Shown here piece by piece: positions 7,963-61,273 of a stretch of 64,000 bases of DNA. The stretch's first letter is position 1. Each line of letters opens with the position of its first letter. Below the pieces are notes generated by a model. That model had not been told where the DNA came from. It worked only from the letters and a program-made list of their open reading frames with translations, and did not search any database. The position numbers and the translations under genes were made by a program. This DNA is from Centroberyx gerrardi (lineage: Eukaryota > Chordata > Actinopteri > Beryciformes > Berycidae), in the NCBI RefSeq assembly GCF_048128805.1, contig NC_136013.1:900126-964125 (forward strand), in the 5' to 3' direction.

Positions 7963-8011
<49 letters not shown>

Positions 8012-8903: not shown

Positions 8904-8946
<43 letters not shown>

Positions 8947-30908: not shown

Positions 30909-30946
30909 TCTAAAAGATAAAACAGACAGACAAGGCAGTCAAAACT

Positions 30947-32283: not shown

Positions 32284-32316
32284 ACTCTCTATGTGTAGTA
32301 TGGTTGGGTGACTCCT

Positions 32317-38400: not shown

Positions 38401-41400
38401 TGATACTGTATAGTTGATCACCTGAATAATGAGGGGGGCGGTCTCTCTTCAAATCCTCTGATGATAGGTGCGACTCCTTGCAACAGCCACTGTGGACAGT
38501 TTTGCTTCTCAGTGAGGGGGAGATGGACTACAGCAGCTTTCTTGGTCTTGGTGGAAATGAGTTGCACCTTCCAGTGTTTGGTAAACGACAACTGTTTGAA
38601 AGAGCAGTAAAGGTCATGCAGGAGAGTACTGAGAGGGTAATCCTCTGCCTCCACTGGGACAGGAGAACTCCTGTCTGCCCAGCTCTGAGCGAGTCCCTGC
38701 TAGAGTCTGTGCCTTATATCGACACACTCAGGTATGTGTTTTAGCATGTTTTTGTGTAATATTAATTCCACATAAATGAATCCAATGTACAATAGATTAA
38801 CAATGTAAATTCAAATTGAGTTACTTCCCCTTTGCTGTAAAAATTGATGAGTTTTCAATCACATTTTAAGAACTGGTACTGGTGAGCAGAGGGTTTGTGC
38901 CAGGATTGAAAGCCGGATGCATAATGCTGACCACAGTGTTACCTTTTTTGTTTGTATACAACCATATGTGTGTAACCAAGTGGTTCCCATACACCAGTCC
39001 CAGAATAAACTGGAGTCAAAGGCTGCCATACCAAAAATACAGATTTTATTTGACACAGATAAAAAGGCAATAAATAGGGCAGTGCAGGGCACAATTTCAA
39101 TTGTGCCAATCGGGACCAAAATAAATAAAAATACAAAAACAAAGTGTTGTAGCCAATTTTGATGTGTGCTATATGTTGTTGTTGTGGTAAGTTGTGTAAA
39201 TGTTGTTGTTGCTACTTCACCTGCGCACTAGAGGGCATAGGCAGGTAATCACAGTAGTCACATAGCCTACATAGGGGAGTCACAGGTGATCAGCTGGGGG
39301 GAATTAGGAACTGAGGAAGCCACACAGTTTTTCAATCGTGTGTGGGCGCCTGTGCTTTTTTGGTCCTGTCGTGTTGTTTTGTTTTGTTTCATATCGAGCT
39401 CGTTTTTATATCACTCAACCAGTGCACCCGGCTTTTGTAGGTGACTTTAAATCTACATATATGTAAATAAAGTGTCAAACGCATACTCCATGGCAGACCT
39501 AATTTTTTGCACCACCACGCGTTGGAAATGCCTTCAAACTCCCTCAAGTGGTCTTTTTTTGTTGTTCGATTGCCATACTTTGTTGAAAAACTAAGCTTCA
39601 ATGGATGGATCACGTTGATTTGCGACACGGAAGGACAGCGCTATGCTCTATGTACTCTGTTCCAGCTGAATTCACTTAATGGGACGCCGACAAGTGAAAG
39701 CCTGGGCGAAAGCCTGGGCGAAAGCAACGTCGAAGAATCACGGTAGGACTATTTCAGAATTGTTACAAGCTGTGTGGAAGAGATTGGCCTTCTCACAAAC
39801 AGGATACAGGTAAATCCTACTACAATTCTAAATAAAGCCTTCAGCAGCTTTGCTAAATCAATATCAAAATGAGTAACGTGGAAATTAATGCACCTGTCAA
39901 TCAAAGTGAAACGGAGAATGAACTTGGTAAAAGACCGGTTAAACTCACGGTTAAAGCATTGGAAGCAAAAGTAGTATCACATCAACAGGAAAGGAATTCC
40001 AAGATAACGAAACTCTACAAACTAACAAAGGAAGTTGAGCAACTGATGCTTTCAAACAAAAATGTGTCTGAGGTGCAGACCAAGTATGAAACGTTTTTAA
40101 GACTGTGTGTGGTAACAACAGAGCTGCGTGAATCATTGAAAACATTAATGCCCGAGGATGAAATGTCAAAACAAAATGAATGGTTTGAAACCCGAATGCA
40201 CAGCAACAAAGAAATAATACAAAAAATGGAAGAGTGGTTGCTTGATACCAGGGAGCAATGCAAAGATGATGATGATGATGTTGATGATGAAGTTGAAGTT
40301 GATGATAATGCTGTGCTAAAATTAACTGTGGTCAATGATAACGCTGCGCCAAACATGACTGTGGTCATTGATGATATTGATCCAGGTGACAGCGTTTCTA
40401 ATGTTGGTGGTAAAACATGCTCATCAGCTGGCCGCTCCAGCCACAGGTCTTCAAGGTCATCAACCTCCTCTGCATGCCTCAAAGCAGAGGCTGAAAGGGC
40501 TGCTCTCCTTGCTATGGCAGCTGCCCTCAAAGAAAAACATGAGCTAGAGGCTCAGGAGGAACATATCAGACAAAAAAGGGAATTGCTTGAATTGCAAAGT
40601 CAAATTGCTGCTCATACAGCAAAAGTTACTGTGCTTAAGTACAGAGGTTCTGATGTACAGAGCTGATGTTCTGATGTACAGAGCTGGTACAGAGATGTTC
40701 AGATGGAATGAATTCATATCTGGAAAGTTCAAAACGTAAATCTTCTCTCAGACCTTCTGCTATGGAATTTGTTTGACAAAGTTCAAAGCATCAGTTCAAC
40801 CACCCACCAATAGGAGGCAGCAAGGCTGCAATGCCAATGGAGGCACGGCCCAAGGATTCAAACCATAAGTTCAATCATCCACCAATAGGAGGTAGCAAAG
40901 CTGCAATACCAGTGGGGGCACGGCCCAAGGAAACCATCTTACAAGTTGGACCAAAAGCTCATGCTCTGCATCCCAAATCAAGCATGCTTCAAGGATCTCA
41001 GCAAACATATCACGTCACACATCACACACAGGAACCCGCCACGCAGTTCACGCAGGAACCCATTCAGTGTGCTGGCTTAGTGCAAACCAATACGGACCAA
41101 GGCAATCTTCTCACAATTATGCAACGGCAAAATGACATAACGGCTCTACTAGTGCAGCAACAGTCTTCATTATCATTACCCCCAAGGGATATACCAACTT
41201 TTGATGGAGACCCTCTTGAGTACAGCACATTCATCAGAGTGTTTGAGCATGGAGTGGAAGGAAAGGCTGCTAGCAGTATAGACTGTTTATACTTTTTGGA
41301 GCAGTACACCAAAGGACAACCTAGGGAGCTGGTCAAGAGCTGTCAACACATGCCACCTGAAAGGGGATATCAAAGAGCAAGGACACTTTTACAAGAACGC

Positions 41401-44400
41401 TTTGGAAATGAGCAAAGAATAGCCACTGCGTACATGGAGAAAGCTCTTGGATGGTCACCAGTGAAATCAGAGGACGTCAAGGCCTTGCAAGCTTTTGCCT
41501 TGTTTCTACGCGTCTGCTGTAATGCTATGGAGGATGTTAGTTACATGTCAGAGATGGATATGCCATCCAACATGCGTGCTATAATCTTGAAGTTACCATA
41601 TAAACTGAAGGAAAAATGGAGAAATACTGCTTATGAGCTGCAGGAGAGGTACCGTCGTCAAGCAGGTTTCAGTGATATTGTCAATTTCATTGAGAGACAA
41701 GTGTCTATTGCTTCTAGTCCACTCTTTGGAAACATTCAGGACACATCTATCTCACCACCAAAGTATAAAGGTGGAAACAAAGTCTCACAGGTTCGCATCA
41801 AGGGAACAGGAAGCAGTTTCGCTACCTCTGTGGCAGCTGTTAATTCTGGAACCGCGACTCAAATGCAAAAGGAGAAAAACTTACCTGATAAGTCAACAAA
41901 GGTATCTTGTCTGCTGTGTAAAGAGGGTCACAGATTGGAGGTGTGCCCCAAAATGGAGAAGAAGTTGCACAGAGAGAAAATTGACTTTCTAAAAGAGAAC
42001 GGTGTTTGTTTTGGGTGTTTATCTGTTGGACACATGAGCAAAGACTGTCATAGTCGTTTGTCTTGCAAGTTGTGTAACCTGAAACATCCTACCATTCTCC
42101 ACATCCATTCAAAGGAGAAGGAAATCAAATCAGAGGCCACACAGCAAGAAACACCAGGGAAGAGTCATGCAGTTTCTCCTAAGACATGTGGCCATATAGG
42201 GGCCGGAGCACAGGATTGTGTCTTGCCAATTGTGCCTGTACAGATCAAGGCAGCAAAATGCTAAAGACCTATGCATTCTTAGATCCTGGCAGCAATGCCA
42301 CTTTCTGCTCTGAGCGACTCATGAGGGAGCTAAAGTTGAGAGGAAGAAATGCCAAAATCCTGTTGAGAACAATGAATCAAGAAAAGTTTGTCGACAGTCA
42401 CGTCATCTCAGGATTGGAGGTAGCTGCACTCAATAGTAACACCTACTTTGAATTGCCTGATGTGTATACACAGTGTAAGATGCCTGTGACTCGTGATAAC
42501 ATTCCACGACAGGAAGAGTTAAGTGCTTGGCCACACTTAAACTCTGTGGAAATTCCTGTCATCGATGTTGATGTGGAGCTGTTAATTGGAACTAACGTTT
42601 CGAAAGTAATGGAACCATGGGAAGTGGTAAACAGCAAGGGTGAAGGCCCTTATGCTGTCAGAACCCTACTGGGGTGGGTTGTCTATGGACCACTGAGAGG
42701 AGGCAATGAGACTGGGAGCAGCTGTCCCACCATTACAGTCAACCGAATATCCATTGCTAACATAGAGGAACTACTGGTGAAGCAATACAACCACGACTTC
42801 AATGAGAAGTCAACAGAGGAAAAGCTAGAAATGTCCAGAGAAGATCTCAAGTTCATAAAAATCATGAACAGTTCAGCTGAACTCAAAAACGGACATTACT
42901 GCTTGAGATTACCTTTCAGAGAGGATAATGTTACCATGCCCAATAACCGCCATGTTGCTGAGCAAAGGGTCCTCTGCCTGAAAAGGAAATTGAAGAAAAA
43001 TGCTATATTTAAAGAGGAATACATCCAGTTTCTCGGTGACGTCATAAATAAAGGCTATGCAGAGAGGGTGCCAGAACACCAACTGGAAGGAAAAGAAGGA
43101 AAAGTCTGGTACATTCCGCATCATGGTGTGCACCATCCTAAAAAGGGAACCTTGAGAGTGGTATTTGACTGCGGTGCAAGCTTCAAAGGGAACTCACTCA
43201 ACAGTCAGCTACTCCAGGGACCTGACTTGACGAATTCTTTGTTCGGAGTTCTCACGAGGTTTCGTCAAGAATCTATAGCAGTGATGGCTGATATACAAGC
43301 AATGTATCACCAAGTCAAAGTGGCAAAACAGGATGTAGACTTTCTTCGCTTCCTGTTGTGGCCAAATGGTGAACTGACACATCTCACTGAATACAGAATG
43401 ACTGTTCATCTGTTTGGCGCAATATCATCGCCCAGCTGTGCCAGTTTCGCCCTAAGCAAAACTGCTGGGGACAACAGAGCAGAGTTCCCAGCACATGTGA
43501 CTGATACCATCAAGCACAATTTCTATGTGGACGACTGCTTGAAGTCCCTGCCTTCAGAGGCAGAAGCCATGGCCTTGGTGAGAGACCTGACAGCTGTATG
43601 CCAGTTGGGAGGGTTTCAGCTGGTGAAATGGATCAGCAACAGCAGGTCAGTGTTGGAATCCATTGATGTGGAAAAAAGAGCTAAGGAAGTGAAAGAATTG
43701 GATTTCGACAGAGACAACCTCCCTGTCGAGAGAACATTGGGACTACAGTGGTGTGCGGAAACCGACGCCTTCAGGTTCAAGATGGCAGTCCAGGAAAGAC
43801 CACTCACAAGACGGGGTATCTTGTCTGTGGTAAGCTCAGTTTACGACCCCATTGGATTTTTAGCACCCTTTACCTTACCTGCCAAGTTGATGCTGCAAAA
43901 CCTCTGTAGGTTGAGCTACAGTTGGGATGATCACATTCCTCAAAACTACCAGTTGCAGTGGGTGGGGTGGCTAGAAGACCTAAGAAGGCTCAGCAAATTC
44001 AGCGTGCCGAGATGCATCAAACCTAAAGATTTTGGACAGCTCACAAGTGCCCAACTACATCACTTCTCTGACGCTAGCGAGGATGGTTACGGCACAGTTT
44101 CGTACCTGAGGCTGCAGAATGACAAAGAGAAGATTCATCTAGCCTTCGTTCTAGGAAAGGCACGAGTTGCTCCAGTAAAGAAAGTGACAATCCCAAGGAT
44201 GGAACTAACAGCCGCTGTGCTTGCAGTGCGAGTTGACAGGATGCTGAAAGCAGAATTGCAACTAGAGCTGGAAAATTCAACCTTCTGGACGGACAGCACA
44301 ACAGTGCTAAAGTGCATCAGGAACAAAACAAAGCGCTTTCACACCTTTGTGGCCAATAGGATCTCCGCTATAAGAGAAGCCACTGCCGTCTCACAATGGA

Positions 44401-47400
44401 GGTACGTTGATACAAAGCAGAACCCGGCTGATGAGGCCTCTCGCGGGGTGAAAGTTGAGTACCTTCTCACATGCAGCAGATGGATCCATGGCCCAGACTT
44501 TCTTTTCAAGAATGAAAGAGAATGGCCTATTAACATCGTGGATTCTGTTTCTATCAGCAGTGATGACCCAGAGGTCAAAGGAGAGGCTACAGTGAATACT
44601 GTAGTCATCAAAGATGCACCAAATGCAACGAATATTATCAACAAAGAGGCACAGAATGCAACAAACCAGCTGATAACCTATTTCTCTTCATGGAAAAGGC
44701 TAAAGATCTCAGTTGCTTGCTTTCTCCAGGTGAGAAAGATGTTGCAGTTGTTGAGTCAGAAGAGAAAAGAAATACAGACTTCTGTGTCCAGCAGTGGACT
44801 TGACATAACTCAACAGAAGAACAAAGTGGAAAAGGAGATGCAAAGATTCAGAGCCACACTGGGTGGTCAAACCTTGTCTCTTGAAGATATTGACACCGCT
44901 GAAAGTGCCATCATTTGGTACTCTCAACTGGAAAGGTTCAGTGATGAAATAACTGCTTTGAAAAGGGGAACATCTGGAGTGAAGAAAATCAGTCACATTT
45001 ACAAACTTGATCCAGTGCTGGAAAAGGGGCTCTTGAGAGTGGGAGGAAGGCTCAGCAAAGCAGCAATGCCTGATGGCATGAAACACCCAGTCATTCTTGC
45101 TAAAGATCAGCACATCTCCACTCTCATTTTACGCAACATTCATGAGCAATTAGGACATTGCGGAAGAAATCACCTGCTTTCCAGACTTCGTCAACAGTAT
45201 TGGATCACCAGCGCAAATGCTGCTGCCAGAAGGATCCTCTCTTCCTGTGTCGTTTGCAGACGTTATAGGGGAAAGCTGGGTGAACAAAAGATGGCAGATT
45301 TGCCGAAAGAAAGACTTCAACCTGACCTCCCACCATTCACAAATGTAGGCGTTGATTATTTTGGCCCTTTTGAGGTGAAGGTAGGCCGCAGCCTCATCAA
45401 ACGCTATGGAGTTATCTTCACCTGCATGGCCAGTAGGGCAGTGCATTTGGAAATGGCATACTCATTAGACACCAGTTCTTGCATCCATGCACTGCGCAGA
45501 TTCATTCCAGAAGAGGCCAAGTATCACACATCAGATCAGACAACGGAACCAACTTTGTGGGAGCAGAACGTGAAATGAGAGAAGCTCTATCTGCTCTGAA
45601 TCACAAGAAAATTCAAAACTCATTACTTCAGTCTGGAGTGAAATGGAGCTTCAACACTCCTGCTGCATCACATCATGGTGGAGCATGGGAAAGAATCATT
45701 TGCATGGTCAGAAAGGTGCTGAACTCAGTACTTCATCAGCAAAACGTGGATGATGAAGGATTGCAAACTCTTCTGTGCGAGGTGGAAGCCATATTGAATG
45801 ACCGTCCCATCACAAAAATCTCAGATGACCCTAATGATCTCGAACCCCTGACTCCAAATCACATCCTCTTGTTGAAAGGCAAACCTGCTCTACCATCTGG
45901 GCTTTTCGAGAAAAGTGACTTGTACACCAAACGACGATGGAGGCAAGTTCAATTCCTCTCAGATCTCTTTTGGCACAGATGGATTCGGGAGTATTTACCA
46001 CTGTTACAGGAACGACAACGATGGTCAAAGGACAAGAGAAGCTTTGTCACAGGAGATATCGTCATTGTAGCGGACTCTACTGCCCCTCGCGGATCCTGGT
46101 TGTTGGGGAAGGTACTGCAGACCTTTCCTGACACACGGGGACTGGTGCGGTCTGTTAAAGTCCAGACCAAATGCAACATACTGGAGCGACCGGTCACAAA
46201 GATCTGTCTTCTGCAGGAAGCTGATTAAAGACTGATGTAAAATCCATATTCCAACATTGGGGTTATTTCTGACCCTATGGACACATACATGAACATTATG
46301 GACTGAAAACACACACTTGCACTATGGACTTGTCATTGGCTCCATTGTTTGTATGGTGTTGAATTGTTATGTTATTTTACAGTAACAATTAGGGGCCGGT
46401 GTGTTGTAGCCAATTTTGATGTGTGCTATATGTTGTTTGTGGTAAGTTGTGTAAATGTTGTTGTTGCTACTTCACCTGCGCACTAGAGGGCATAGGCAGG
46501 TAATCACAGTAGTCACATAGCCTACATAGGGGAGTCACAGGTGATCAGCTGGGGGGAATTAGGAACTGAGGAAGCCACACAGTTTTTCAATCGTGTGTGG
46601 GCGCCTGTGCTTTTTTGGTCCTGTCGTGTTGTTTTGTTTTGTTTCATATCGAGCTCGTTTTTATATCACTCAACCAATGCACCCGGCTTTTGTAGGTGAC
46701 TTTAAATCTACATATATGTAAATAAAGTGTCAAACGCATACTCCATGGCAGACCTAATTTTTTGCACCACCACGCGTTGGAAATGCCTTCAAACTCCCTC
46801 AAGTGGCCTTTTTTTGTTGTTCGATTGCCACTATACAAACCATACACTAGGGTCAGGGAGTCACACTAGGGTCACTACACACAATTTGGTTTAGATTAAC
46901 AAACTGTACTACACCACTCAAGAGTTATTTTTGTGCACACCATATAATTAGGTGAATCAAACTACACCATGCAATAAGGAGTCCCTTTATCCTCCCTATC
47001 ACTTAGCCCCCAAAGTAGCACAACAAAAGCCCCATAGGGAGAACTAAACAGAAAACTGGCCCGTATGGTCAGATTAGTTAAAACGAAGGCACTTCTATAC
47101 TGCATACAGCTCTAATATGGGAAAAACAGTGGTTGGCTTTCCATCGATTTGGCACTTGACAGATTTTACAAAACATACAATTTATTAGACATCACAGGGC
47201 AGAGAAATGTATAGAGCACTGTGATAGATTCAACAGAGTGCCTTAATGTACCTTGTAACATTTAAACCATCCAGAACTCAAGAGTCTGCGCCCAAATCTC
47301 GCCCTTAAGATGCACTAGATAAAATACAAGAGTATTAGCACAGGAAAACAACAAAAACACAGAAAAAACATTAAAGGAATAGTTCACCCAAAAATGAAAA

Positions 47401-50400
47401 CTCAGTCATTATCTACTCACCCCCATGTCAGCTGACACTCGGGTGAAGTTTGTTAGTCCGTACAGCCCTGAGCTCCACAGCGGAACGGCGTAGAAGCCTT
47501 CTCCAAAACAGTTGAAGTTGCTGGGGACCTGACTTGACTTCAAAGTGAAAAACATAACAGACAATATCCATAAAATGGCTCCATGCAGCTCGTCCAGCAT
47601 AATGCAAGTCTCTGTTTTAAACCAATGAATTTGTATTTAATCATCAAATCCAATAAGTGAGCACCCATATTACTGTTTAATGTCAAAATAATAATGAAAA
47701 ATGCCATTAAGTGTGCCATTTTTAACTATAAACGCTGCATGTATTACACTGTGCAGAATACATACAGAACAAAGACATCAAACATTAATATGGGTGCCGA
47801 CTTATTGAATTTGACGATAAAATACAAAGTAATTGGTTTAAAACAGTATTTCTACCCATTTTCAAATCTCGCGCTTTTATTTTGAAGGCTAAACGGCCAA
47901 ACCGGAAGTCTTGTTTCTGCTAACTCGAGCAAGAGTGGCGATTTCAGCTAAATAATGGTGTAAATGTCTTTTCAAGTCACTTTGGGATCGGTTGGCTTCT
48001 GGAGACTTGTATTATGCTGGACGAGCTGCATGGAGACATTTTATAATAATAATAATAATAATAAAACATTAGACTTGTATAGCGCTTTTCTAGGTACTCA
48101 AAGACACTTCACATACAGGGTAAAATAATTTAATAGAAAATTTATAATAATAAAAAGAAATAAAAGACAAGAATAAAAGTAGGTAGTTAAAAACTACAGG
48201 AATCGAAAGATGGAGGGAAGGGAGAGGAGGTTAACAGGTGAAAGCAAGCTTGAAGAGGTGAGTTTTGAGGGCCTGTTTGAAAGAAGGCAGGGTGTTAGCC
48301 TGCTGTTAGCCGGATGTGGATGGGGAGGGCGTTCCAGAGGGAGGGTGCAGCAACTGAAAAGGCCCTGTCGCCCCAGGTCCGGAGCTTGGTCCTGGTGGTC
48401 TTGAGAGTGGTTGCGTCCGCGGACCTGAGGCATCGGGTAGGGGTGTGGCGGGGATGAGGTCGGAGAGGTATGGAGGGGCCAGGTTGTGTATGGCTTTGTA
48501 GGTGGTGAGTAGTATTTTAAAGTCAATCCTATGTTTAACCGGGAGCCAGTGGAGGTTGTGAAGGACAGGGGTGATGTGATCTCGGCGGCGGGTGGAGGTG
48601 AGCAGGCAGGCAGCGGAGTTCTGGACGTATTGAAGTTTATTAAGGGTTTTGTTTGGTAAGCCGTAGAGGATGCTATTGCAGTAGTCGAGTCTGGAAGTTA
48701 TGAGGGCATGGATGAGGGTTTCGGCAGCGGCAAAGGACAGGGAGGGCCGGAGGCGGGCAATGTTCCTGAGGTGGAAGAAGGCAGTTTTTGTGACCTGGTT
48801 GACATGGGGTAGAAATGAGAGGGTGGGGTCAAGGATGATTCCAAGGTTGCAGACCTGGGTGGAGGGGGTGACGATGGAGCCATCGATGTTGAGTGAGAAG
48901 GTCTGGGCGGAGCGGGTGAGGGAGTTTGGGCCGATGATGAGGATTTCAGATTTATTGCAGTTGAGTTTGAGAAAGTTCTGTTGCATCCATGATTTTGTGT
49001 CTGCAAGGCAGGTGGTGAGGGTGGAGTGGGTGGTTGAGGTGATGGTTTTGGAGGGGAGGTAGAGTTGAGTGTCATCGGCGTAGCAGTGGAAACGGAGGCC
49101 ATGACGGTGGAGGATCTGTCCAAGAGGGAGGATGTACAGGATGAAGAGGAGGGGACCAAGTACTGAACCTGGGGGACACCATGGCCTACTCCTTCACCAA
49201 ACCACCCAAAATCTGAAGGTTTAAAATATTTGGTTAACCACTAGAAACTGACAGTCTTACTTGGTGCTACAGGTCTAATCAGAATCTTGAAACCATGAGT
49301 TTGGAAAAGCTACGAGCTAAGAGGGAAGTCAACTCAACATAGAGCACACCAAACAACAGCTGGCATCAGCTACTGTCTTCCAAGATGTAATGAGTGCAGG
49401 GAAAGAGGCCAGGGTTGATCCTCCTCCCCCGTTTATGCTCTCTCCTATTCACCTGGGTCCTAGTGCTAGACAGATTTCCTTCACTGAGAGTGCTTGGTCC
49501 TAATACTTTCCCCCACTACATGTGCATGAATATTTGTTGCAATTTCATGTTAACTCATGCACTAGAAAGTGTTTGAAATTTGTCTGTTGACGTCTGTTGT
49601 CAGTTTCAGGAACACCTGCACAGTTGCAGGTTCACAGGATCAGGAACAACACCCTGGGACACTGGAGATGGAAGAAAAGAAGCTACTTCTAGATGTATGT
49701 CTGAAGGCAGCACTTTACAAGAGAGAAAGCTTTCACAATGTGGTGAATACACTCTTCTCACTGTTCTCTGTTCACACTGAGAGATACGACTTCCTTCTTG
49801 ATTTACATCAACATATCAAGAGTCAAGGATATACAAGTGTCATTCCATTACTGAAGCCACTTTACCAGTCAGCTGCTGCAGTCTGGTCCATCAGGCTCTC
49901 AGAGAGAAAGGCCTCCCTCCTCCTGGAAGTGCTGAAACTCCAATCAGAAAAGAAACCAGTGAAGCTGACAGGCTGTTCAGATGAAGAGAGTGAAGTGTGG
50001 AGTTTCCTACAGTGTCTGCCTCACATCTCACAGCTCAGGTAAATGGACTGTCATTCATTCAGATATTTTAAGTCTACATATAATAACTAACTCAATGGAT
50101 AGTATGAGGATATTTATTTTTGATTGATGCATTGTATTTGTACTTAATGCAGATTAATCTTTTATTACTTTTACTGATTTCTCCCTACCGTTTAAGAGAT
50201 ACAGTGTCTGTCCATATTGTTTTGTTCTCTATATGATGCAGAAATCAAATCATGGCATAATCATTCATTCTCATTGTTCCAGTTTCTGTCGTCTGAGTTT
50301 AAAACCTGTAGAAGGAGCCAAGTTCTTGGGGAATCTCTTCTGTCGAGCAGCAGAGAGGGAACAACAGACAGGAGAGAAGATACTGGAGCTGTTATCATCA

Positions 50401-53400
50401 GTGTGCAGTTACAACTCATTCCCTCTCAATGACATGGATATTGATGATGATGATGATGATGATGATGATGTTGATAAAAAGGACTATCAGTGTGATTTCC
50501 TACTGGACCTGTGCTCCCATGTGAAGAACTATGAGACTCTAACAGGCAGGAGTGTCCTTCCAGCATTACAGTCAGTTTACCAGTCAGCTCCTGCAGTCTG
50601 GTCCATCAGGCTCTCAGAGAGAAAGGCCTCCCTCCTCCTGGAAGTGCTGAAACTCCAATCAGGAAAGAAACCAGTGAAGCTGACAGGCTGGTCAGATGAA
50701 GAGAGTGAAGTGTGGAGTTTCCTACAGTGTCTACCTCACATCTCACAGCTCAGGTGATGGGATTAATATAAAAAAATTAGAACATGGCTGCACATGTAAA
50801 ATAATCCACTCTTCCTATTCAAAACAATATTTAACCTTCATTTAACCATGAGGTCAGTTAATATTTTTTTATTCCCAGTCAGGGCCTCCAGAAAAATACA
50901 TTCCAACTTAGTGAGAAAAAAAGTTTCCCAATTTCCGAGAATAAAGTATACATACAGTATTTTAACTGCCTTTAAACATATCAACATGCAGATTAAAACA
51001 TGGTGACAAATCTACATGAAGCAATATTTAATGTTGACCTGCTCAGTAAAGAGTCTGCCTTTCAGTTCAGATTCCAAAAGATATAAAGTGGATTTTAATA
51101 TTAACATGTTTTATCTGTACATTGTGATGTAATTTGACATGTAAAAGCTCGGTGATGTGATGTTTTCTATATCAGTGATGTTTTATATTTCAGTTTTTGG
51201 TTATCGAGGCTCTCCCTTTATGTTTTGAACCCTCTGCAGATTCACTGTTCCTCAGAATCAAACAGGATCACTTGTAGAGGGAAGAAAGAAGGAAACATTT
51301 CTAATGAATCTGTGTCTGCAAGCAGCGCTCCATGAGAGGACAACCATACAAAGTGCAATAGCCAAGGTGTTTTCACTCTCTAAATGTTGGCATCAGAAAT
51401 GGGATTTCCTACTGGACCTGTACTCCCATGTGAAGGACTATGAGACTCTAACAGGCAGGAGTGTCCTTCCAGCATTACAGTCAGTTTACCAGTCAGCTGC
51501 TGCAGTCTGGTCCATCAGGCTCTCAGAGAGAAAGGCCTCCCTCCTCCTGGAAGTGCTGAAACTCCAATCAGAAAAGAAACCAGTGAAGCTGACAGGCTGG
51601 TCAGATGAAGAGAGTGAAGTGTGGAGTTTCCTACAGTGTCTGCCTCACATCTCACAGCTCAGGTAAATGGATTGTCATTCATTCACATGATTTCAGTCTA
51701 CATATAAAAGTTATCTCATTAGACAGTATGTGGATATTTAGTCATGATTAATGCACTGCACACATACTTCATGTAGATCTATTATTACTTTCTCTCTACT
51801 AATTTCTCCCTAACATTTAAGAGATACAGTGTCTGTCTTGGTTGATTGGTTCTCTGCTGTATATGATGCAGAAATCAGATCATCACATCATTTTTTTCAT
51901 TGTCATTGTTCCAGTTTCTGTCATCTGAGTTTAAAACCTGTAGAAGGAGCCAAGTTCTTGGGGAATCTCTTCTGTCGAGCAGCAGAGAGGGAACAACAGA
52001 CAGGAGAGAAGATACTGGAGCTGTTATCATCAGTGTGCAGTTACAACACATTCCCTCTCAATCACCCAGTATATGTCAGTGATGATGAGTATCAGTGTGA
52101 TTTCCTACTGGACCTGTGCTCCCATGTGAAGGACTATGAGACTCTAACAGGCAGGAGTGTCCTTCCAGCATTACAGTCAGTTTACCAGTCAGCTGCTGCA
52201 GTCTGGTCCATCAGGCTCTCAGAGAGAAAGGCCTCCCTCCTCCTGGAAGTGCTGAAACTCCAATCAGGAAAGAAACCAGTGGAGCTGACAGGCTGTTCAG
52301 ATGAAGAGAGTGAAGTGTGGAGTTTCCTACAGTGTCTACCTCACATCTCACAGCTCAGGTGATGGGATTAATATAAAAAAATTCGAACATGGCTGTACAT
52401 GTAAAATAATCCACTCTTCATATTCAAAACAATATTTAACCTTCATTTAACCATGAGGTCAGTTAATATTTTTTTATTCCCAGTCAGGGCCTCCAGAAAA
52501 ATACATTCCACCTTAGTGAGAAAAAAAGTTTCCCAATTTCCGAGAATAAAGTATACATACAGTATTTTAACTGCCTTTAAACATATCAACATGCAGATTA
52601 AAACATGGTGACAAATCTACATGAAGCAATATTTAATGTTGACCTGCTCAGTAAAGAGTCTGCCTTTCAGTTCAGCTTCAATAAGATATAAAGTAGATTT
52701 TAACATTAACATGTTTTATCTGTACATTGTGATGTAATTTGACATGTAAAAACTCGGTGATGTGATGTTTTCTATATCAGTGATGTTTTATATTTCAGTT
52801 TTTGGTTATCGAGGCTCTCCCTTTATGTTTTGAACCCTCTGCAGATTCACTGTTCCTCAGAATCAAACAGGATCACTTGTAGAGGGAAGAAAGAAGGAAA
52901 CATTTCTAATGAATCTGTGTCTGCAAGCAGCGCTCCATGAGAGGACAACCATACAAAGTGCAATAGAAGAGGTGTTTTCACTGTCTAAATGTTGGCATCA
53001 GAAATGGGATTTCCTACTGGACCTGTACTCCCATGTGAAGGACTATGAGACTCGAACAGGCAGGAGTGTCCTTCCAGCATTACAATCAGTTTACCAGTCA
53101 GCTGCTGCAGTCTGGTCCATCAGGCTCTCAGAGAGAAAGGCCTCCCTCCTCCTGGAAGTGCTGAAACTCCAATCAGGAAAGAAACCAGTGAAGCTGACAG
53201 GCTGTTCAGATGAAGAGAGTGAAGTGTGGAGTTTCCTACAGTGTCTGCCTCACATCTCACAGCTCAGGTAAATGGATTGTCATTCATTCATATGATTTCA
53301 GTCTACATATAAAAGTTATCTCATTAGACAGTATGTGGATATTTAGTCATGATTAATGCACTGCACACATACTTCATGTAGATCTATTATTACTTTCTCT

Positions 53401-56400
53401 CTACTAATTTCTCCCTAGCATTTAAGAAATACAGTGTCTGTCTTGGTTGATTGGTTCTCTGCTGTATATGATGCAGAAATCAGATCATCACATCATTTTT
53501 TTCATTGTTATTGTTCCAGTTTCTGTCATCTGAGTTTAAAACCTGTAGAAGGAGCCAAGTTCTTGGGGAATCTCTTCTGTCGAGCAGCAGAGAGGGAACA
53601 ACAGACAGGAGAGAAGATACTGGAGCTGTTATCATCAGTGTGTAGTTACAACACATTCCCTCTCAATGACATGGTGGATATTGATGATGATAAGTATCAG
53701 TGTGATTTCCTACTGGACCTGTGCTCCCGTGTGAAGGACTATGAGACTCTAACAGGCAGGAGTGTCCTTCCAGCATTACAGTCAGTTTACCAGTCAGCTC
53801 CTGCAGTCTGGTCCATCAGGCTCTCAGAGAGAAAGGCCTCCCTCCTCCTGGAAGTGCTGAAACTCCAATCAGGAAAGAAACCAGTGGAGCTGAGAGGCTG
53901 GTCAGATGAAGAGAGTGAAGTGTGGAGTTTCCTACAGTGTCTGCCTCACATCTCACAGCTCAGGTAAATGGATTGTCATTCATTCAGATATTTTAAGTCT
54001 ACATATAATAACTAACTCAATGGATAGTATGAGGATATTTATTTTTGATTGATGCATTGTATTTGTACTTACTGCAGATTAATCTTTTATTACTTTTACT
54101 GATTTCTCCCTACCGTTTAAGAGATACAGTGTCTGTCCATATTGTTTTGTTCTCTATATGATGCAGAAATCAAATCATGGCATAATCATTCATTCTCACT
54201 GTTCCAGTTTCCATCGTTGGTCTTTAAAACCTGTAGAAGGAGCCAAGTTCTTGGGGAATCTCTTCTGTCGAGCAGCAGAGAGGGAACAACAGACAGGAGA
54301 GAAGATACTGGAGCTGTTATCATCAGTGTGCAGTTACAACACATTCCCTTTCAATCACCCAGCATATGTCAGTAAGGAGTATCAGTGTGATTTCCTACTG
54401 GACCTGTACTCCCATGTGAAGGACTATGAGACTCTAACAGGCAGGAGTGTCCTTCCAGCATTACAGTCAGTTTACCAGTCAGCTGCTGCAGTCTGGTCCA
54501 TCAACCTCTCAAAGAGAAAGGCCTCCCTCCTCCTGGAAGTGCTGAAACTCCAATCAGGAAAGAAACCAGTGAAGCTGACAGGCTGTTCAGATGAAGAGAG
54601 TGAAGTGTGGAGTTTCCTACAGTGTCTACCTCACATCTCACAGCTCAGGTAAATGGATTGTAATTCATTCATATGATTTCAGTCTACATATAAAAGTTAT
54701 CTCATTAGACAGTATGTGGATATTTAGTCATGATTAATGCACTGCACACATACTTCATGTAGATCTATTATTACTTTCTCTCTACTAATTTCTCCCTAGC
54801 ATTTAAGAGATACAGTGTCTGTCTTGGTTGATTGGTTCTCTGCTGTATATGATGCAGAAATCAGATCATCACATTATTTTTCATTGTTATTGTTCCAGTT
54901 TCTGTCGTCTGAGTTTAAAACCTGTAGAAGGAGCCAAGTTCTTGGGGAATTTCTTCTGTCGAGCAGCAGAGAGGGAACAACAGACAGGAGAGAAGATACT
55001 GGAGCTGTTAGCATCAGTGTGCAGTTACAACTCATTCCCTCTCAATGACCCAGCTTATGTCAGTGATGAGTATCAGTGGGATTTCCTACTGGACCTGTAC
55101 TCCTATGTGAAGGACTATGAGACTCTAACAGGCAGGAGTGTCCTTCCAGCATTACAGTCAGTTTACCAGTCAGCTGCTGCAGTCTGGTCCATCAGGCTCT
55201 CAGAGAGAAAGGCCTCCCTCCTCCTGGAAGTGCTGAAACTCCAATCAGAAAAGAAACCAGTGGAGCTGACAGGCTGGTCAGATGAAGAGAGTGAAGTGTG
55301 GAGTTTCCTACAGTGTCTGCCTCACATCTCACAGCTCAGGTAAATGGATTGTCATTCATTCAGATATTTTAAGTCTACATATAATAACTAACTCAATGGA
55401 TAGTATGAGGATATTTATTTTTGATTGATGCATTGTATTTGTACTTAATCCAGATTAATCTTTTATTACTTTTACTGATTTCTCCCTACCGTTTAAGAGA
55501 TACAGTGTCTGTCCATATTGTTTTGTTCTCTATATGATGCAGAAATCAAATCATGGCATAATCATTCATTCTCATTGTTCCAGTTTCCATCGTTGGTCTT
55601 TAAAACCTGTAGAAGGAGCCAAGTTCTTGGGGAATCTCTTCTGTCGAGCAGCAGAGAGGGAACAACAGACAGGAGAGAAGATACTGGAGCTGTTATCATC
55701 AGTGTGCAGTTACAACACATTCCCTCGCAATGACCCAGCTTATGTCAGTGATGATGACTATCAGTGTGATTTCCTACTGGACCTGTACTCCCATGTGAAG
55801 GACTATGAGACTCTAACAGGCAGGAGTGTCCTTCCAGCATTACAGTCAGTTTACCAGTCAGCTCCTGCAGTCTGGTCCATCAGGCTCTCAGAGAGAAAGG
55901 CCTCCCTCCTCCTGGAAGTGCTGAAACTCCAATCAGGAAAGAAACCAGTGAAGCTGACAGGCTGTTCAGATGAAGAGAGTGAAGTGTGGAGTTTCCTACA
56001 GTGTCTGCCTCACATCTCACAGCTCAGGTAAATGGATTGTAATTCATTCATATGATTTCAGTCTACATATAAAAGTTATCTCATTAGACAGTATGTGGAT
56101 ATTTAGTCATGATTAATGCACTGCACACATACTTCATGTAGATCTATTATTACTTTCTCTCTACTAATTTCTCCCTAACATTTAAGAGATACAGTGTCTG
56201 TCTTGGTTGATTGGTTCTCTGCTGTATATGATGCAGAAATCAGATCATCACATAATTTTTTCATTCTCACTGTTCCAGTTTCTATCGTCGGAGTTTAAAA
56301 CCTGTAGAAGGAGCCAAGTTCTTGGGGAATCTCTTCTGTCGAGCAGCAGAGAGGGAACAACAGACAGGAGAGAAGATACTGGAGCTGTTATCATCAGTGT

Positions 56401-59400
56401 GCAGTTACAACTCATTCCCTCTCAATGACCCAGTATATGTCAATAATAATAAGTTTCAGTGTGATTTCCTACTGGACCTGTACTCCCATGTGAAGGACTA
56501 TGAGACTCTAACAGGCAGGAGTGTCCTTCCAGCATTACAGTCAGTTTACCAGTCAGCTCCTGCAGTCTGGTCCATCAGGCTCTCAAAGAGAAAGGCCTCC
56601 CTCCTCCTGGAAGTGCTGAAACTCCAATCAGAAAAGAAACCAGTGAAGCTGACAGGCTGGTCAGATGAAGAGAGTGAAGTGTGGAGTTTCCTACAATGTC
56701 TGCCTCACATCTCACAGCTCAGGTACTTCAGATAGTTGAGGTTTGTCAAAAAATGCAGCACATAAACACTAAATGCTTAATAATAGATGAATAATATTCT
56801 TCAGCTAAGTACATTTTCAGCAACATAGTTATTTAATATGGATAGTTTATATGACATCATGACAGCTAATGATACAGATAGTAATATACTGAATTCATCG
56901 TACTTTATGTGGTTGCTCTTAATTTTACCTTTTGATTCCTGATCTTTGATTAAACAGTATCCATATTCTCCAATAGATAATGTTAGACATTGCACATACA
57001 GCGGTGTGCAATACATCATCTATTGCGTCATGTATTCCTCTAACTATAACACGGCTCATTTGACATTTCATTCCATAATGTCCTGTTTTAGCTGTGATCC
57101 AGGGTTCTTCCAGCATGTGTGTGAATCCATCTGTGTGAGATCCAGAGAGGAGACCCAGCAGCTGGCCTCTCTCCTCCAGCTCCTGGGTTTCACCCTGGTG
57201 TTAACAGGAGAGTTACCCAGGAAAACCTGCCGGTCTGTGGGGAGAGTTCTGGGACTCTGTGGCTCCAGTGTGGACCTCATCCTCACACCCAGCAAGATCT
57301 CTCTCAAAGGAGCCTCACTGCTTTTTAGACATACATCACAAATACACAGTCTCAGGTATGCTGCATTTATGTCATTATTACTCCTAATAACAATGTTTGT
57401 CCACTGTCAAAATCATATTGTGTTAAATCCATTAGAGGTGTATATCATTCCAGGATTGTGTTTTTTTTCTTTGATTTTCAGACTGTCTGCAGTAATGGCA
57501 TTGCTACTGTTTCGATTGGTCAGAACACGGAGAGTGGCCGGTCCAGTGGCCGCTGAAGAGCTTTCCCTTGTCCTGAAGACGAGCCAGCTGTCAGACAGAG
57601 TATTGTTGAGGGTTGTCAGTAGTGTGGCGTCCCTACTGAGATACTGGGCAGTCAGGTGTTTGGACCTGACCGAGTTCTCCATCCACGCTCACTTTCTCAT
57701 GACATTGCTACTTCACCATGATCCTCTTACGATCAAGTAAATCTCTTTGCTTTGCTGATCCATAAAAACATACACTAAATCATATACCATATAAATCCTT
57801 AATATTATTTTTCCTAAATATGTTCATTCATTTGTATTTGTCCTCTGATCTGTGACTTCCTCAGACTGTGTGCACAGCATTTTCAGCAGCTACTTGTCCT
57901 CATACATGAGATCCAGGACAAGGACTTGACTCAGTCTTTCTTGAGGAAGGTTGGTGGAGACCTGACCTCCTGCTCTCTGGACTGGGAAGTACTTCACTAT
58001 CTGCTGCAGCAGCCATCAACTCAGACCATCACTGTGGACTTGAGGAGGAACAGGATCTCAGAGACGAGAATCATAGATCTTCTTCCCTTTCTGGACAGGA
58101 TTCTATTTAAAAGGTGATAAAGCTTTATTTACTCTTCACTGGATAGAGAAATACATTTGATCCGATTTAATAATTTGATGTGCATTGTTATGCTTATCTT
58201 TCATCAGTAAACTGGCTTGTGTCTTACTTATGTGATAGAAAATGTTCTGTGTCTATTGGTGATAAGTTCTCTCCAACTGTTGCGCTTACATGTGGGGTGC
58301 CTCAGGGATCCATTCTTGGCCCCAATCTGTTTTCACTTTATATGCTTCCCCTGGGTCATTTAATCCAGCGTTATTTTCATGCTGACGACACTCAGCTGTA
58401 CCTGTCTATGAAATGCAATGATTTCAGTAGATTAGCCAATCCAACTGACTGTCTTGTAGCCATCAAGGACTGGATGTCTGACAATTTTCTTAAGCTTAAT
58501 GAAGAAATAACAGAAGTTCTTGTTATTGGTCCTGATAATATCCCCGGCAAAAAATAGGAAGCTCTTGGTTCCCTGGGATCCAACATCAAATCCTCCTCAA
58601 AAGATCTTGCTGTTATTTTTGATCCCCAAGAATTTTGCCTCACATACCAAGAAGCTTGTTCAATCCTGCTTTTTTCAGTTATATATAGCTAAAATCAGAC
58701 ATGTCCTGTCTTTGCAAGACAATGAGAAAATTATCCGTGCTTTTGTGTCATCACGGTCGTACTGCTGTAATGCCTTATTTACATGCCTCAGTCAAGCAGC
58801 TTTGGCTCGTCTTCAGTTGGTCCAAAACACAGCAGCCCGTCTTCTTACTACGACAAAACGCAGCGAGCACATTGCTCCAGCGCTCGCCTCTCTGCACTGG
58901 CTGCCTGTAAAGTTCAGGATTCATTTTTAAAATTCTTGTTATTACTTTCCAGGCTGTACATGGTGAAGCCTCAGAATACATCTCAGAATTGTTGTCATAT
59001 AATAATGTGAGGTCTCTTAGGTCCTCTAAACAGGCTGCTGGTTAAAGGCCAGGCTTAAACTGAAGGGGGGCGGTGCGTTCACTGTCCTCGCCCCAAAACT
59101 GTGGAACAGTCTTCCTCTTGACATCAGATTGTCTGACTCGCTGATCATTTTTAAAATACTATTCCCTTGCTTTCAGTTGCTCTTGAAGCTGTTATTTTCG
59201 CTGTTATTTTGTGTGATATGTGATCTTATGTTTTTAATTTTCGTTTTTATTGTGAAGCACTTTGTAACCTTGGTTTTAAAAGGTGTTATATAAATAAAGT
59301 AAAATAATAGTGTAAACAATTCCATGACTAATCAAACAAGCCCTTGTTATTGTAATGTAAATATCCAGCATGTTATGCTAAATATACTGTATACTTTCAG

Positions 59401-61273
59401 GCCCAGTCCCAGCTTGGTGTTGTCTGCCATCAGAGAGAGCTATAAAACACACACCAGTCACTGTATACCCTGTTTACTGAGGTCATTAGATCATGTGATC
59501 AACCTGACCTGCAGACAGCTGGACAGAGCGGACTGTGCTGCTCTGCTCTTCACCCTCCAGCACAGTGATGGAGTCAAACTCAAACTGCTGTGGACCTCCA
59601 TACCAACAGGGGGAACAGAGTCCATCCTGTTCACACTGGAGAAAGTCTCTCATCTCAGGTCAGATGTTAGTACTCATTTAGCAATGCTGAACCACTACTG
59701 TATGAATGTACAATGTTGAAAGGATCATTACTTAACCAATACACAGGATATGATATGACTAACCCTGGTGCTATTTAGGTAGAAACCAGCTGTACCTGTA
59801 CCTGTATGTCACTGGAGTTATCAGGTGGGCACCTCCCATCACAGATGTTTATCACCTCCAGAGGGATCAACAGTAGGTTCTGGCATCCCAGAACCGCCTG
59901 CCTTCACATCGGCTGGCAATATTAAACAGAACTACAGTCACCTTACTCTATCCAGTACTTTTACCTAGTTCTCAACATTACCCAACAATTCCTAAACTTG
60001 CTATGGGTCTCAAATATGTAGAATAATGGAATGGCTGACCCTGCAGGCTTGAAACATAAATATACATTGAATGCATCATGTATGGCGTCTTTTTGTCTTG
60101 TTTAGTTGTGTACCTGCCTACTTTATTGATTGTTGATGACTGAAATGGTAACATTTATCATATTTCTGCATCATTTTTCATACCAGTTTAGACAGGAATC
60201 TGCTGCTGAGGTTCCTCCACTGCTGCACTGCCTCTAAGGCCCAACAGGGGGCAGCAGCAGGTCTGCTCAGGACTCTGCAGCACAGACTGGATCTGTCCTG
60301 CTCCTCCTGTGTGGAGCTGTCGGAGCAGGAGCGAGGGGAGGCTCTGTGTCTGACCGCTGGAGACTGCAGGGCCATCTCCACTGTGCTGAGACACAGCAGC
60401 CAGGACACACAGCTCAACCTACGAGACTGTGAGGTGGAGGACAGTGGACTGGACCTGCTGTTTCCTGTCCTGGACAGAGTCCGCCTGAGGTGAGAGAGGA
60501 AAAACAACACATATCTTGGATTGCAATCATATTCAAGATTGATGCCTGTTTCAGCACCGTAACGTTCTGCTCTTTGCTCTGTTTCTCCCCTTCAGCAGCA
60601 GCAAAGCCCTCCTCCTCCAGCTGGTGTCCCTGGTCCCTGTGGGCAGTGAAAGGGACACAGCGAGGCGAGCAGAGTCCCTCTGTCGAGCCCTGGCCGGAGA
60701 GCTGGACCTCAGTGAGACCAGACTGGATCAGAGGGCCTGTGGAGCTGTGGCCCTGATACTGGAGCTTTCTGAAGGGCTGAAAGAGCTGGACCTCAGTCAC
60801 TGTCGACTCACTGACCGGCTGCTACAGACGCTGATCCCACACCTGCACAAAGCTCAAGTCCTGGAGTGAGTCCGCTAGAATGGAGATGCATTTGTATGTG
60901 CGTGTGTGTGGAAATCTGATTATAATCTAATAATATCTTTGTCTTTTATTGGTGTTATAGTCTGAGTCACAATAAGATCACTGATGCTCTGACTGACAGT
61001 TTACTCCAGCTGGTCTCCATCAACACCTCCATCCACACTGTGCGGTGAGCGTAAATGCACTCGTGTCTGAATGATTAATATATGAAATCTTTTGTATTGC
61101 CAGACTTGCAGAGAAATCATTTGTGAGTTTAGATGAGTAAACACTGTTACACATTATTCTGGCTGATGAAGTAACATTTGCTCTCTCTGCTCTGGCATCT
61201 TCTTAGAGTCTTCAGCAACAGCATCATGGACAGAACCCCCTTTCTGAAAGACAAACGCTTTGAAATGTGGTGA
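35018..61273 (+). CDS. Large CARD-NACHT-LRR NOD-like receptor (NLR) with tandem exon array
   Basis: A predicted cytosolic innate immune sensor. NLRs use an N-terminal signalling domain, a nucleotide-binding NACHT domain and a C-terminal sensor region. Coding exons: 35018-35408, 35602-37267, 38513-38731, 49610-50038, 50283-50753, 51240-51662, 51915-52358, 52845-53267, 53520-53963, 54208-54648, 54899-55339, 55584-56027, 56279-56722, 57092-57355, 57482-57736, 57865-58113, 59401-59658, 60187-60489, 60596-60865, 60961-61044, 61207-61273. Every join keeps frame and the total is 8,430 bases (about 2,809 residues plus stop), unusually long for an NLR. The CARD, basic linker and size suggest an NLRC5- or NLRC3-like fish protein, but I cannot assign an orthologue. 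Whether all array exons enter one mRNA is not visible from DNA. Confidence 0.82.
35602..37267 (+). CDS. NLR exon 2: basic linker and NACHT ATPase
   Basis: Residues about 131-686. A Lys-rich run ([17 protein letters not shown], about 186-204) resembles a nuclear localisation signal. NACHT follows: Walker [11 protein letters not shown] at about 231-240, Walker [10 protein letters not shown] with Asp about 310, sensor-1 IVMTCRP, and the winged-helix block [18 protein letters not shown]. The usual DGLDE of Walker B is DGVTD here, so the first of the two trailing acidic residues is lost. The donor is ambiguous: CAATG|GTGGGT (37267) gives the phase 2 that the next exon needs, while TGG|GTGAGC (37271) would give phase 0. 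Confidence 0.88.
37272..38512 (+). other. NLR intron 2, possible old LTR or SINE
   Basis: AT-rich intron. On the minus strand an AATAAA near 37621-37630 is followed by a GC-richer 'cagtgagcgagccttccaac' stretch, which could be part of a solo LTR, but I cannot find its ends. Confidence 0.4.
38513..38731 (+). CDS. NLR exon 3: LRR-like unit
   Basis: 73 codons after [47 protein letters not shown] and [12 protein letters not shown], ending CTCAG|GTATGT. It is phase 2 on both sides and ends in the same 'xxLR' manner as the later exons, so it fits as the first sensor-region exon. It is divergent from the array. Confidence 0.7.
39145..39575 (+). repeat. BEL-2 5' LTR
   Basis: Starts tgttgtagccaattttgatg and ends gttcgattgcca. 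It has two extra bases in the 'gttgttgttg' run compared with the 3' copy. Confidence 0.94.
39869..42264 (+). pseudogene. BEL-2 gag, one frameshift
   Basis: The first part (39869-40666) begins [14 protein letters not shown], with helical and acidic [14 protein letters not shown] stretches. It stops after GSDVQS, where a short tandem duplication (gatgtacagagct twice) has disturbed the frame. The second part (40831-42264) has [34 protein letters not shown] and cysteine-rich knuckles [13 protein letters not shown] and [14 protein letters not shown]. It would form the particle core of the element. Confidence 0.85.
42186..45578 (+). pseudogene. BEL-2 pol: protease, RT, RNase H, integrase N-half
   Basis: An 1,130-codon frame shifted by one base from gag. 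Protease motif [16 protein letters not shown] blocks [33 protein letters not shown] and catalytic [10 protein letters not shown]; RNase [19 protein letters not shown] and [14 protein letters not shown]; then integrase zinc-binding [10 protein letters not shown] ... CVVCRRY and the first catalytic Asp in [10 protein letters not shown]. The frame is lost near 45505. Confidence 0.9.
45479..46228 (+). pseudogene. BEL-2 integrase C-half, frameshifted
   Basis: Continues the integrase in another frame: [15 protein letters not shown] carries the second catalytic Asp, [11 protein letters not shown] the Glu, and the C-terminal domain includes [20 protein letters not shown]. It ends at LLQEAD, close to the PPT. 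Confidence 0.88.
46402..46830 (+). repeat. BEL-2 3' LTR
   Basis: Near-identical to the 5' copy; it starts directly after the purine-rich aattaggggccggtg. Confidence 0.94.
46831..47370. other. NLR intron 3 segment, unassigned
   Basis: AT-rich intronic DNA with a duplicated 'cactagggtca' motif near 46845-46880. Nothing coding is seen. Confidence 0.4.
47371..48040. mobile_element. Fold-back (long inverted repeat) DNA element, interrupted
   Basis: It begins at TTAA followed by aggaatagttcacccaaaaa, the start of a very common fish DNA-transposon family with TTAA targets. Bases 47571-47676 and the reverse complement of 47773-48040 match closely: 'ctccatgcagctcgtccagc' pairs with 'gctggacgagctgcatggag', and 'ctgttttaaaccaa' with 'ttggtttaaaacag'. 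The right arm has about 155 extra bases and its outer end is lost where a LINE tail begins. Confidence 0.65.
48041..49190 (-). mobile_element. 5'-truncated L2-type LINE (minus strand)
   Basis: Its 3' end (AATAATAAT tail and 'gaaaagcgctatacaagtcta' on the minus strand) faces 48041. Coding remnants read leftwards: a frameshifted VPQG..VLGP block near 49175, [16 protein letters not shown] sequence, [71 protein letters not shown] and [20 protein letters not shown]. It holds only the RT C-terminal half and is dead. Confidence 0.88.
49191..49609 (+). other. NLR intron 3, 3' end
   Basis: No feature beyond the splice acceptor 'gtcagtttcag' at 49609. Confidence 0.5.
49610..50038 (+). CDS. NLR array exon B1
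   Basis: 143 codons, phase 2-2: [54 protein letters not shown], then the shared 3' half from [20 protein letters not shown] to CLPHISQLR. The 5' half differs from the other B exons while the 3' half is nearly identical to all array exons. Confidence 0.85.
50283..50753 (+). CDS. NLR array exon A1
   Basis: 157 codons, the longest array exon: [40 protein letters not shown], then a loop [18 protein letters not shown] encoded by a GAT repeat, [20 protein letters not shown] and the shared 3' half. Its donor is GTGATG. Confidence 0.87.
51240..51662 (+). CDS. NLR array exon B2
   Basis: 141 codons after [69 protein letters not shown] and the shared 3' half. An earlier TTTCAG at about 51192 is not used because it breaks the frame. 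Confidence 0.86.
51915..52358 (+). CDS. NLR array exon A2
   Basis: 148 codons. Variable loop [12 protein letters not shown]. Donor GTGATG, followed by an intron nearly identical to the one after A1. Confidence 0.87.
52845..53267 (+). CDS. NLR array exon B3
   Basis: 141 codons, nearly identical to B2, with [15 protein letters not shown] instead of [15 protein letters not shown]. The B3-A3 pair repeats B2-A2 at 1,605 bases. Confidence 0.87.
53520..53963 (+). CDS. NLR array exon A3
   Basis: 148 codons. Variable loop [12 protein letters not shown]. The LRR-like end reads [16 protein letters not shown], where other copies have LTG. Confidence 0.87.
54208..54648 (+). CDS. NLR array exon A4
   Basis: 147 codons. 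Starts [12 protein letters not shown], like A6 only. Variable loop [11 protein letters not shown]. It has INLSKRKAS where others have IRLSERKAS. Confidence 0.87.
54899..55339 (+). CDS. NLR array exon A5
   Basis: 147 codons. Variable loop [11 protein letters not shown]. It has [16 protein letters not shown], where others have [16 protein letters not shown]. Confidence 0.87.
55584..56027 (+). CDS. NLR array exon A6
   Basis: 148 codons. Starts [12 protein letters not shown] like A4, 1,376 bases earlier. Variable loop [12 protein letters not shown], with PRND before it instead of PLND. Confidence 0.87.
56279..56722 (+). CDS. NLR array exon A7
   Basis: 148 codons, last of the array: [20 protein letters not shown] and variable loop [12 protein letters not shown]. 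Its donor is AG|GTACTT and the following intron is unrelated to the array introns. Confidence 0.87.
56723..57091 (+). other. NLR intron between array and C-terminal exons
   Basis: Unique AT-rich intron; it ends at the weak acceptor 'cctgttttag'. Confidence 0.55.
57092..57355 (+). CDS. NLR C-terminal exon 1
   Basis: 88 codons, phase 2-2: [40 protein letters not shown] and [20 protein letters not shown] ending IHSLR. Two LRR-like strand-helix units can be seen. Confidence 0.83.
57482..57736 (+). CDS. NLR C-terminal exon 2
   Basis: 85 codons: [40 protein letters not shown] and [20 protein letters not shown]. The donor AA|GTAAAT keeps phase 2. LRR-like. Confidence 0.8.
57865..58113 (+). CDS. 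NLR C-terminal exon 3
   Basis: 83 codons: [40 protein letters not shown] and a clear LRR strand [20 protein letters not shown]. Confidence 0.84.
58190..59310 (+). mobile_element. 5'-truncated L2/Rex1-type LINE in an NLR intron
   Basis: Remnants [55 protein letters not shown] and [12 protein letters not shown] lead to [20 protein letters not shown] and [13 protein letters not shown], with frameshifts. It ends with 'gcactttgtaacc...ggtgttatataaataaag'. The catalytic YADD is HADD here. Only the RT C-terminal part is present. Confidence 0.87.
59401..59658 (+). CDS. NLR C-terminal exon 4
   Basis: 86 codons after [47 protein letters not shown] and [23 protein letters not shown]-like, phase 2-2. 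Confidence 0.83.
59659..60186 (+). other. NLR intron, no feature seen
   Basis: Unique intron sequence between two well-supported exons. Confidence 0.5.
60187..60489 (+). CDS. NLR C-terminal exon 5
   Basis: 101 codons: [40 protein letters not shown] and an [25 protein letters not shown]-richer than earlier exons. Confidence 0.85.
60596..60865 (+). CDS. NLR C-terminal exon 6
   Basis: 90 codons: [40 protein letters not shown] and a canonical [23 protein letters not shown]. The acceptor lies in a CAGCAGCAG run, so the start could shift by 3 or 6 bases without changing frame. Confidence 0.85.
60961..61044 (+). CDS. NLR C-terminal exon 7
   Basis: 28 codons, exactly one [23 protein letters not shown] then INTSIHTVR. 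The 84-base, phase-2 single-LRR exon is typical of NLR genes. Confidence 0.88.
61207..61273 (+). CDS. NLR last coding exon
   Basis: 22 codons and stop: [20 protein letters not shown] then MW and TGA. The short 'DKRFEMW' ending is like those I know from fish NLR-family proteins. The acceptor is ATCTTCTTAG. Confidence 0.85.

Follow-up and report, generated by a model that had tools for sequence, protein, structure and literature searches.

Introduction

In human NLRs, the leucine-rich repeats (LRRs) are encoded by tandem, frame-preserving exons with borders within an LRR strand; the NLRP exons are 171 bp long and hold two LRRs, and the NOD/NLRC exons hold one (Hoss et al. 2019, PMC6642158). Because these exons have already been described, frame-neutral LRR exons as such are not new. 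The teleost NLR-C and NLR-B30.2 genes have one large NACHT exon, and exon shuffling and conversion have been proposed for them (PMC4852459, PMC2268669, PMC6988351, PMC11192531). The subject of this study is LOC139932372, a gene of the fish Centroberyx gerrardi annotated as "uncharacterized", which lies on the forward strand of a 64,000-nt stretch of DNA (contig NC_136013.1, positions 900,126 to 964,125; we call the whole stretch the window and count positions within it). We think it probable that the gene, which looks intact, belongs to a family of CARD-NACHT receptors that spans the teleosts, with a C-terminal half that is an expandable array of a single cassette, in which the cassettes are homogenised and carry a possible binding face. 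The cassette, the expandable array of near-identical copies and the teleost-wide reach appear to be new; a literature search of limited reach found no description of this array family.

Gene structure and domains

Splice sites and reading frame gave a gene model of 21 exons on the forward strand. The gene is intact, with a frame that runs without interruption from the start codon at 35018 to the TGA ending at 61273 (2,824 codons); a first-pass annotation, made from the sequence alone, had estimated about 2,800 residues. In order, the exons encode a CARD, NACHT with HD2 and one LRR-like segment; the ten exons of the array come next, then seven C-terminal exons (LRR-like by our reading) and a short final one. 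All internal exons downstream of the NACHT exon are phase 2-2. The best protein matches were isoforms of LOC139932372, and all 21 exon peptides are present exactly in its predicted isoforms.

The CARD exon (35018 to 35408, phase 0 in and 1 out) contains the start codon and is identical to residues 1-130 of the annotated protein P0121; Pfam found CARD in it above cutoff (2.3e-12). The next exon (35602 to 37267, phase 1-2), also exact in P0121, has NACHT above cutoff (1.5e-26) with the P-loop GKPGIGKT, followed by NLRC4_HD2 (8.1e-9; 36.5 bits against a cutoff of 33.1). Its sequence matches in PDB included 5irm (rabbit NOD2, 1.1e-23) and the NLRP3 entry 6npy (4.3e-17). Over P0121, LRR_6 reached 25.1 bits against a cutoff of 23.4 without any single passing stretch, and LRR_4 and LRR_8 were under cutoff. 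With an N-terminal CARD, a NACHT domain with its P-loop, HD2 and C-terminal LRRs, the product is an NLR, as had been proposed at first pass.

The remaining exons outside the array come from the splice model and match the isoforms. By our own reading, the first LRR-like exon is at 38468 to 38731 (264 nt), and C1, which is LRR-like without a Pfam match, is at 57092 to 57355 (264 nt). It is followed by C2 (57482 to 57736, 255 nt), C3 (57865 to 58113, 249 nt), C4 (59401 to 59658, 258 nt), C5 (60187 to 60489, 303 nt; LRR_6 below cutoff in its frame), C6 (60596 to 60865, 270 nt; LRR_1 and LRR_6 below cutoff in its frame) and C7, a single 84-nt LRR-like exon (60961 to 61044). The last exon, C8, carries the TGA stop (61207 to 61273).

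Like NLR-C and NLR-B30.2 genes, LOC139932372 is a fish NLR with one large NACHT exon (PMC4852459, PMC2268669, PMC6988351, PMC11192531). However, its P-loop differs from the G-x-A-G motif of NLR-C (PMC4852459, PMC6988351), and its repeats follow NACHT, whereas NLR-C has peptides of about 30 residues before it. FISNA was not among the 19 Pfam families at E<=1 in the NACHT frame, and B30.2, present in many but not all NLR-C members, was not among the 14 families at E<=0.01 in P0121. Without FISNA, without B30.2 and with a different P-loop motif, we rejected NLR-C membership. The genes called NLRC3 in rockfishes are FISNA genes (PMC10648357). Zebrafish NLR-B2, described as CARD then NACHT in an old model without a recognised LRR, is similar by description, and we treat it as a lead only (PMC2268669). 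LOC139932372 also resembles NLRC4 and NOD2, given its NLRC4_HD2 domain and NOD2 entries as the best PDB sequence match. Both have the domain order CARD-NACHT-HD2-LRR, as does LOC139932372. To our knowledge, neither carries such an array.

The exon array

The array consists of ten tandem exons of 423-471 nt, three of kind B and seven of kind A, all with AG/GT borders, phase 2-2 and stop-free, and with start-to-start spacing of 685-909 nt. The first-pass annotation had described these same ten phase 2-2 exons, at 141-157 codons each, and our lengths agree. From our splice model and the isoform matches, the units are B1 (429 nt, ending at 50038), A1 (50283 to 50753, 471 nt, with an extra acidic stretch), B2 (51240 to 51662, 423 nt), A2 (51915 to 52358, 444 nt), B3 (52845 to 53267, 423 nt), A3 (53520 to 53963, 444 nt), A4 (54208 to 54648, 441 nt), A5 (54899 to 55339, 441 nt), A6 (55584 to 56027, 444 nt) and A7 (56279 to 56722, 444 nt). 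Both our own model and the first-pass annotation started B1 at 49610. The array is there, but the annotated isoforms begin B1 6 nt upstream, at 49604, adding two residues, and we place the acceptor at 49604 because P0121 has the residues SFR.

The copies had been called nearly identical, which holds for nine of them: at the DNA level, the cores of A1-A7, B2 and B3 are about 98% identical, but the B1 core is only 85.8% identical to the rest. With nine such cores and all ten exons open in one phase, the array copies are far beyond chance. In A1, a GAT run at about 50437-50490 encodes nine consecutive aspartates in an acidic loop. Because loop length varies among units, this may be a microsatellite that expands and contracts within a coding exon.

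Pfam did not recognise the array as LRR. No match was above cutoff for B1, B2 and A3 scanned singly, or for the two-unit relatives P0001 and P0003 at E<=0.01. Over the whole of P0121, SapB_1 scored 25.8 against a cutoff of 25.2 within the array without a single passing stretch, and DUF5860 and VasJ fell slightly short of cutoff; we do not believe any of these. A PDB sequence search with A3 gave three rows only, at chance level, and a scan of NCBIfam, a bacterial and archaeal library, gave nothing relevant.

An AlphaFold2 model of a two-unit relative (pLDDT, the per-residue confidence, 86.4; pTM, the predicted template modelling score, 0.80) has three LRR-like strand-helix turns and a four-helix insert per unit. 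The single-exon model was poor (pLDDT 68.8) and was not used. Foldseek gave no match at E<=0.001, and we disbelieve the many TIM-barrel rows it returned. The unit had been described at first pass as a helical segment plus one LRR-like end; the helical part is present, but with three LRR-like turns in the model, that description understates the LRR part. In the model, the cassette borders appear to fall within a strand, and the cassettes would therefore join end to end in any number while keeping frame (the phases are seen and the fold is predicted).

Relatives across teleosts

We searched proteins with an A exon (232 matches, best 120 listed) and with the near-full protein without exons A4-A7 (526 matches, best 120 listed, including many isoforms of the same genes). 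The A/B exon family turned up in many teleost relatives. The named A-exon matches among those listed were bony fishes, with one row also bearing a ferret label; several consist of two consecutive units, and none of the 120 listed has a precomputed Pfam domain. Six of the unit-bearing proteins (P0050, P0064, P0072, P0075, P0081, P0100) come from contigs that are all 91,932 nt long, as if from one array-carrying contig.

Using a unit-core profile, we found 6-19 units in all 120 listed near-full relatives, which are predicted teleost proteins, spaced mostly 131-161 amino acids apart with a few down to 67. This bears out the first-pass view of a modular, expandable array, with a unit number that varies among predicted relatives. 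By our own count, C. gerrardi is one of 40 named species among them, which range from Denticeps and catfishes through salmonids and cichlids to sea basses. These models repeatedly place the array after NACHT, and by our own reading of the list all but P0198 have a CARD; some, such as P0162 and P0202, stop within the array.

Compared with the human LRR exons (PMC6642158), the fish cassettes are likewise tandem and frame-keeping, with strand-internal borders and with skipping possible. They differ in being 423-471 nt long with three turns and a four-helix insert, in having nine cores about 98% identical, and in reaching 6-19 copies in the predicted relatives listed.

Homogenised cores and two leaders

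Within the C. gerrardi gene, core DNA identity is 97.8% among A exons and 98.0% between A and B2/B3, whereas the leaders of A and B2/B3 are 39.2% identical. We repeated the comparison at the protein level with 36 proteins, namely the product of the window gene and 35 of the 120 listed, taking a single isoform for each gene chosen. These gave 405 units, or 404 in the leader comparison; many leaders remained unclassed and the A/B strings are rough. A and B cores were 92.5% alike within a protein against 73.8% between proteins, and A and B leaders were 28% alike within and 27% between. The same protein supplied the closest core to 313 of 405 units and the closest leader to 319 of 404. From these sequences, we read the core as probably in concerted evolution across A and B, with two leader kinds retained. 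The introns fall into three classes with 97.2-99.2% identity within a class; with introns this near to identical, whole intron-exon blocks have been copied.

Variation among units and competing explanations

The seven A exons have a pN/pS (nonsynonymous to synonymous differences per site, ungapped columns only) of 1.86, which rises to 2.23 when the loop is left out. The corresponding bootstrap fractions at or below zero, 0.032 and 0.053, were borderline. The A exons differ by 4.1% against 1.9% for their preceding introns, and the comparison with the other intron class gave 4.8% against 1.1%; the bootstrap fractions at or below zero for these exon-over-intron differences were 0.0155 and 0.0000, respectively.

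Across genes, we measured variation in 301 units from 31 of the 36 proteins (without P0154, P0173, P0208, P0221 and P0231), excluding the first unit of each, any unit whose leader was of B type and any not 126-164 amino acids long. Within-gene variation was higher in loops (0.167) than in strands (0.125) and helices (0.108), and highest of all in the acidic loop and the start of the leader. The top five core columns (221, 196, 201, 223 and 198) each vary in 52-87% of the 31 genes. Four of them are polar positions on strands, interleaved with hydrophobic positions that hardly vary, and 201 is just past a strand. Variation averaged 0.195 at 8 polar strand columns, compared with 0.045 at 7 hydrophobic columns (p 0.027) and 0.056 at 16 polar columns of the core helices (p 0.022; both one-sided Mann-Whitney tests). 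However, over all helices with the leader included, polar columns average 0.119. In this small sample of columns, the pattern is what an LRR binding face would be expected to show.

The strongest competitor, which we still consider unlikely, is that the array is a scaffold or spacer in which length matters rather than recognition, and that near-identity comes from recent neutral duplication and conversion. In its favour, introns of one class are nearly identical as well, as if whole blocks had recently been copied or converted; the dN-dS signal is only borderline; and variation peaks in an acidic loop. Against it, the A exons diverge more than their introns, mostly through replacements, and the same core columns vary in gene after gene.

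Under our preferred reading of a receptor with an expandable array, unequal exchange and gene conversion would add, remove and homogenise cassettes, leaving loops, leader starts and alternate polar strand positions free to differ. The long array would bind, or be held by, a ligand or partner; the change would release NACHT to oligomerise, and the N-terminal CARDs would then recruit a CARD partner, for example a caspase or a kinase. An altered number or content of cassettes would alter which molecule is bound. We infer a sensor role for the array, as did the first-pass annotation, and its interpretation as a whole is partly supported. If true, this vertebrate NLR family would evolve its sensor through the number of cassettes in addition to the number of genes. 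The family is present in many farmed and wild fishes under the name "uncharacterized", with a main repeat that has no convincing domain model, and comparing cassette number and strand-face residues across individuals and species would allow a direct test of the way an innate receptor searches binding space.

The variable lymphocyte receptors (VLRs) of jawless vertebrates are mentioned in the paper on human NLR exons (PMC6642158). Unlike in VLRs, no somatic assembly is implied for the fish array, and the variation is in the germline array. VLRs are also built from LRR modules that vary on the strand face, which is a likeness to the fish cassettes.

Isoforms and splicing

Three predicted C. gerrardi isoforms match the rebuilt exons and contain array exons, as gene models, but differ in the units joined. 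X2 has 20 of the 21 exons, with A2 missing. X5 has B1, A1, B2, A2, B3, a hybrid unit (A3 at its start, A6 thereafter) and A7. X10 ends after A3. The listed predicted isoforms of five genes (23 in Lates, 11 in Salvelinus, 14 in Dicentrarchus, 7 in Trematomus and 3 in Centroberyx) differ largely by whole units. In Lates and Salvelinus single units are missing, and which one is missing differs between isoforms; in Dicentrarchus 9 of 16 distinct units are each in one listed isoform only. The odd unit that we examined closely is the X5 hybrid.

It is quite unlikely, in our judgement, that regulated alternative splicing of cassettes produces a combinatorial repertoire from one gene. These isoform differences and the frame-neutrality of every unit would suit it, and human NLRP3 is reported to skip a frame-neutral LRR exon (PMC6642158). 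However, the isoforms are predicted models and not transcripts, and the X5 hybrid and the single-isoform units of Dicentrarchus are as expected from misplaced short reads. Misplaced reads would yield the same isoform picture, so regulated skipping of units is possible only, and the predicted isoforms may be mapping artefacts. We are doubtful of a wider combination of these ideas, a germline-expandable teleost NLR with a homogenised scaffold, a variable binding face and cassettes chosen by splicing, which would make many receptors per gene and be an innate counterpart of VLR and Dscam diversity. An assembly or annotation artefact, with fewer true copies or with array and NACHT from separate genes, is highly improbable: near-identical repeats are prone to error and some listed relatives stop within the array, but the copies are distinguishable and all open, phases are consistent along the whole gene, and the recurrence of NACHT then array in 120 listed models speaks against an artefact in kind, if not to the exact copy number. 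Neither of the outcomes that the first-pass annotation had named as counting against it turned up.

Mobile elements and repeats in the window

Downstream of the first LRR-like exon, the intron leading into the array holds a BEL/Pao-type long terminal repeat (LTR) retroelement on the forward strand (39148 to 46830, approximate ends), with a Pao peptidase (1e-48), an integrase zinc finger, a reverse transcriptase and an LTR pair. It touches no exon of the rebuilt gene and is absent from the mRNA. Over about 430 nt, only two substitutions and one 2-nt gap separate its LTRs, and with LTRs this similar the insertion looks young. By eye from open reading frames (ORFs), a second BEL/Pao-like element lies on the reverse strand at 25535-33729, split by a long interspersed nuclear element (LINE); the LINE ORF at 28065-30938, with endonuclease and reverse transcriptase, is the sole part that Pfam confirmed. 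Fragments of non-LTR elements resembling reverse transcriptase, also found by eye, are in the intron just upstream of B1 (48306-49193, reverse strand) and in the intron between C3 and C4 (58174-58930, forward strand).

We also noted by eye a long minisatellite on the reverse strand at 5003-7886, with several frames open and a repeated peptide, and AT skew goes down to -0.65 in 6001-8000. Two more minisatellites with several open frames are at 3328-3951 and 8856-9753, seen by eye from the ORF list.

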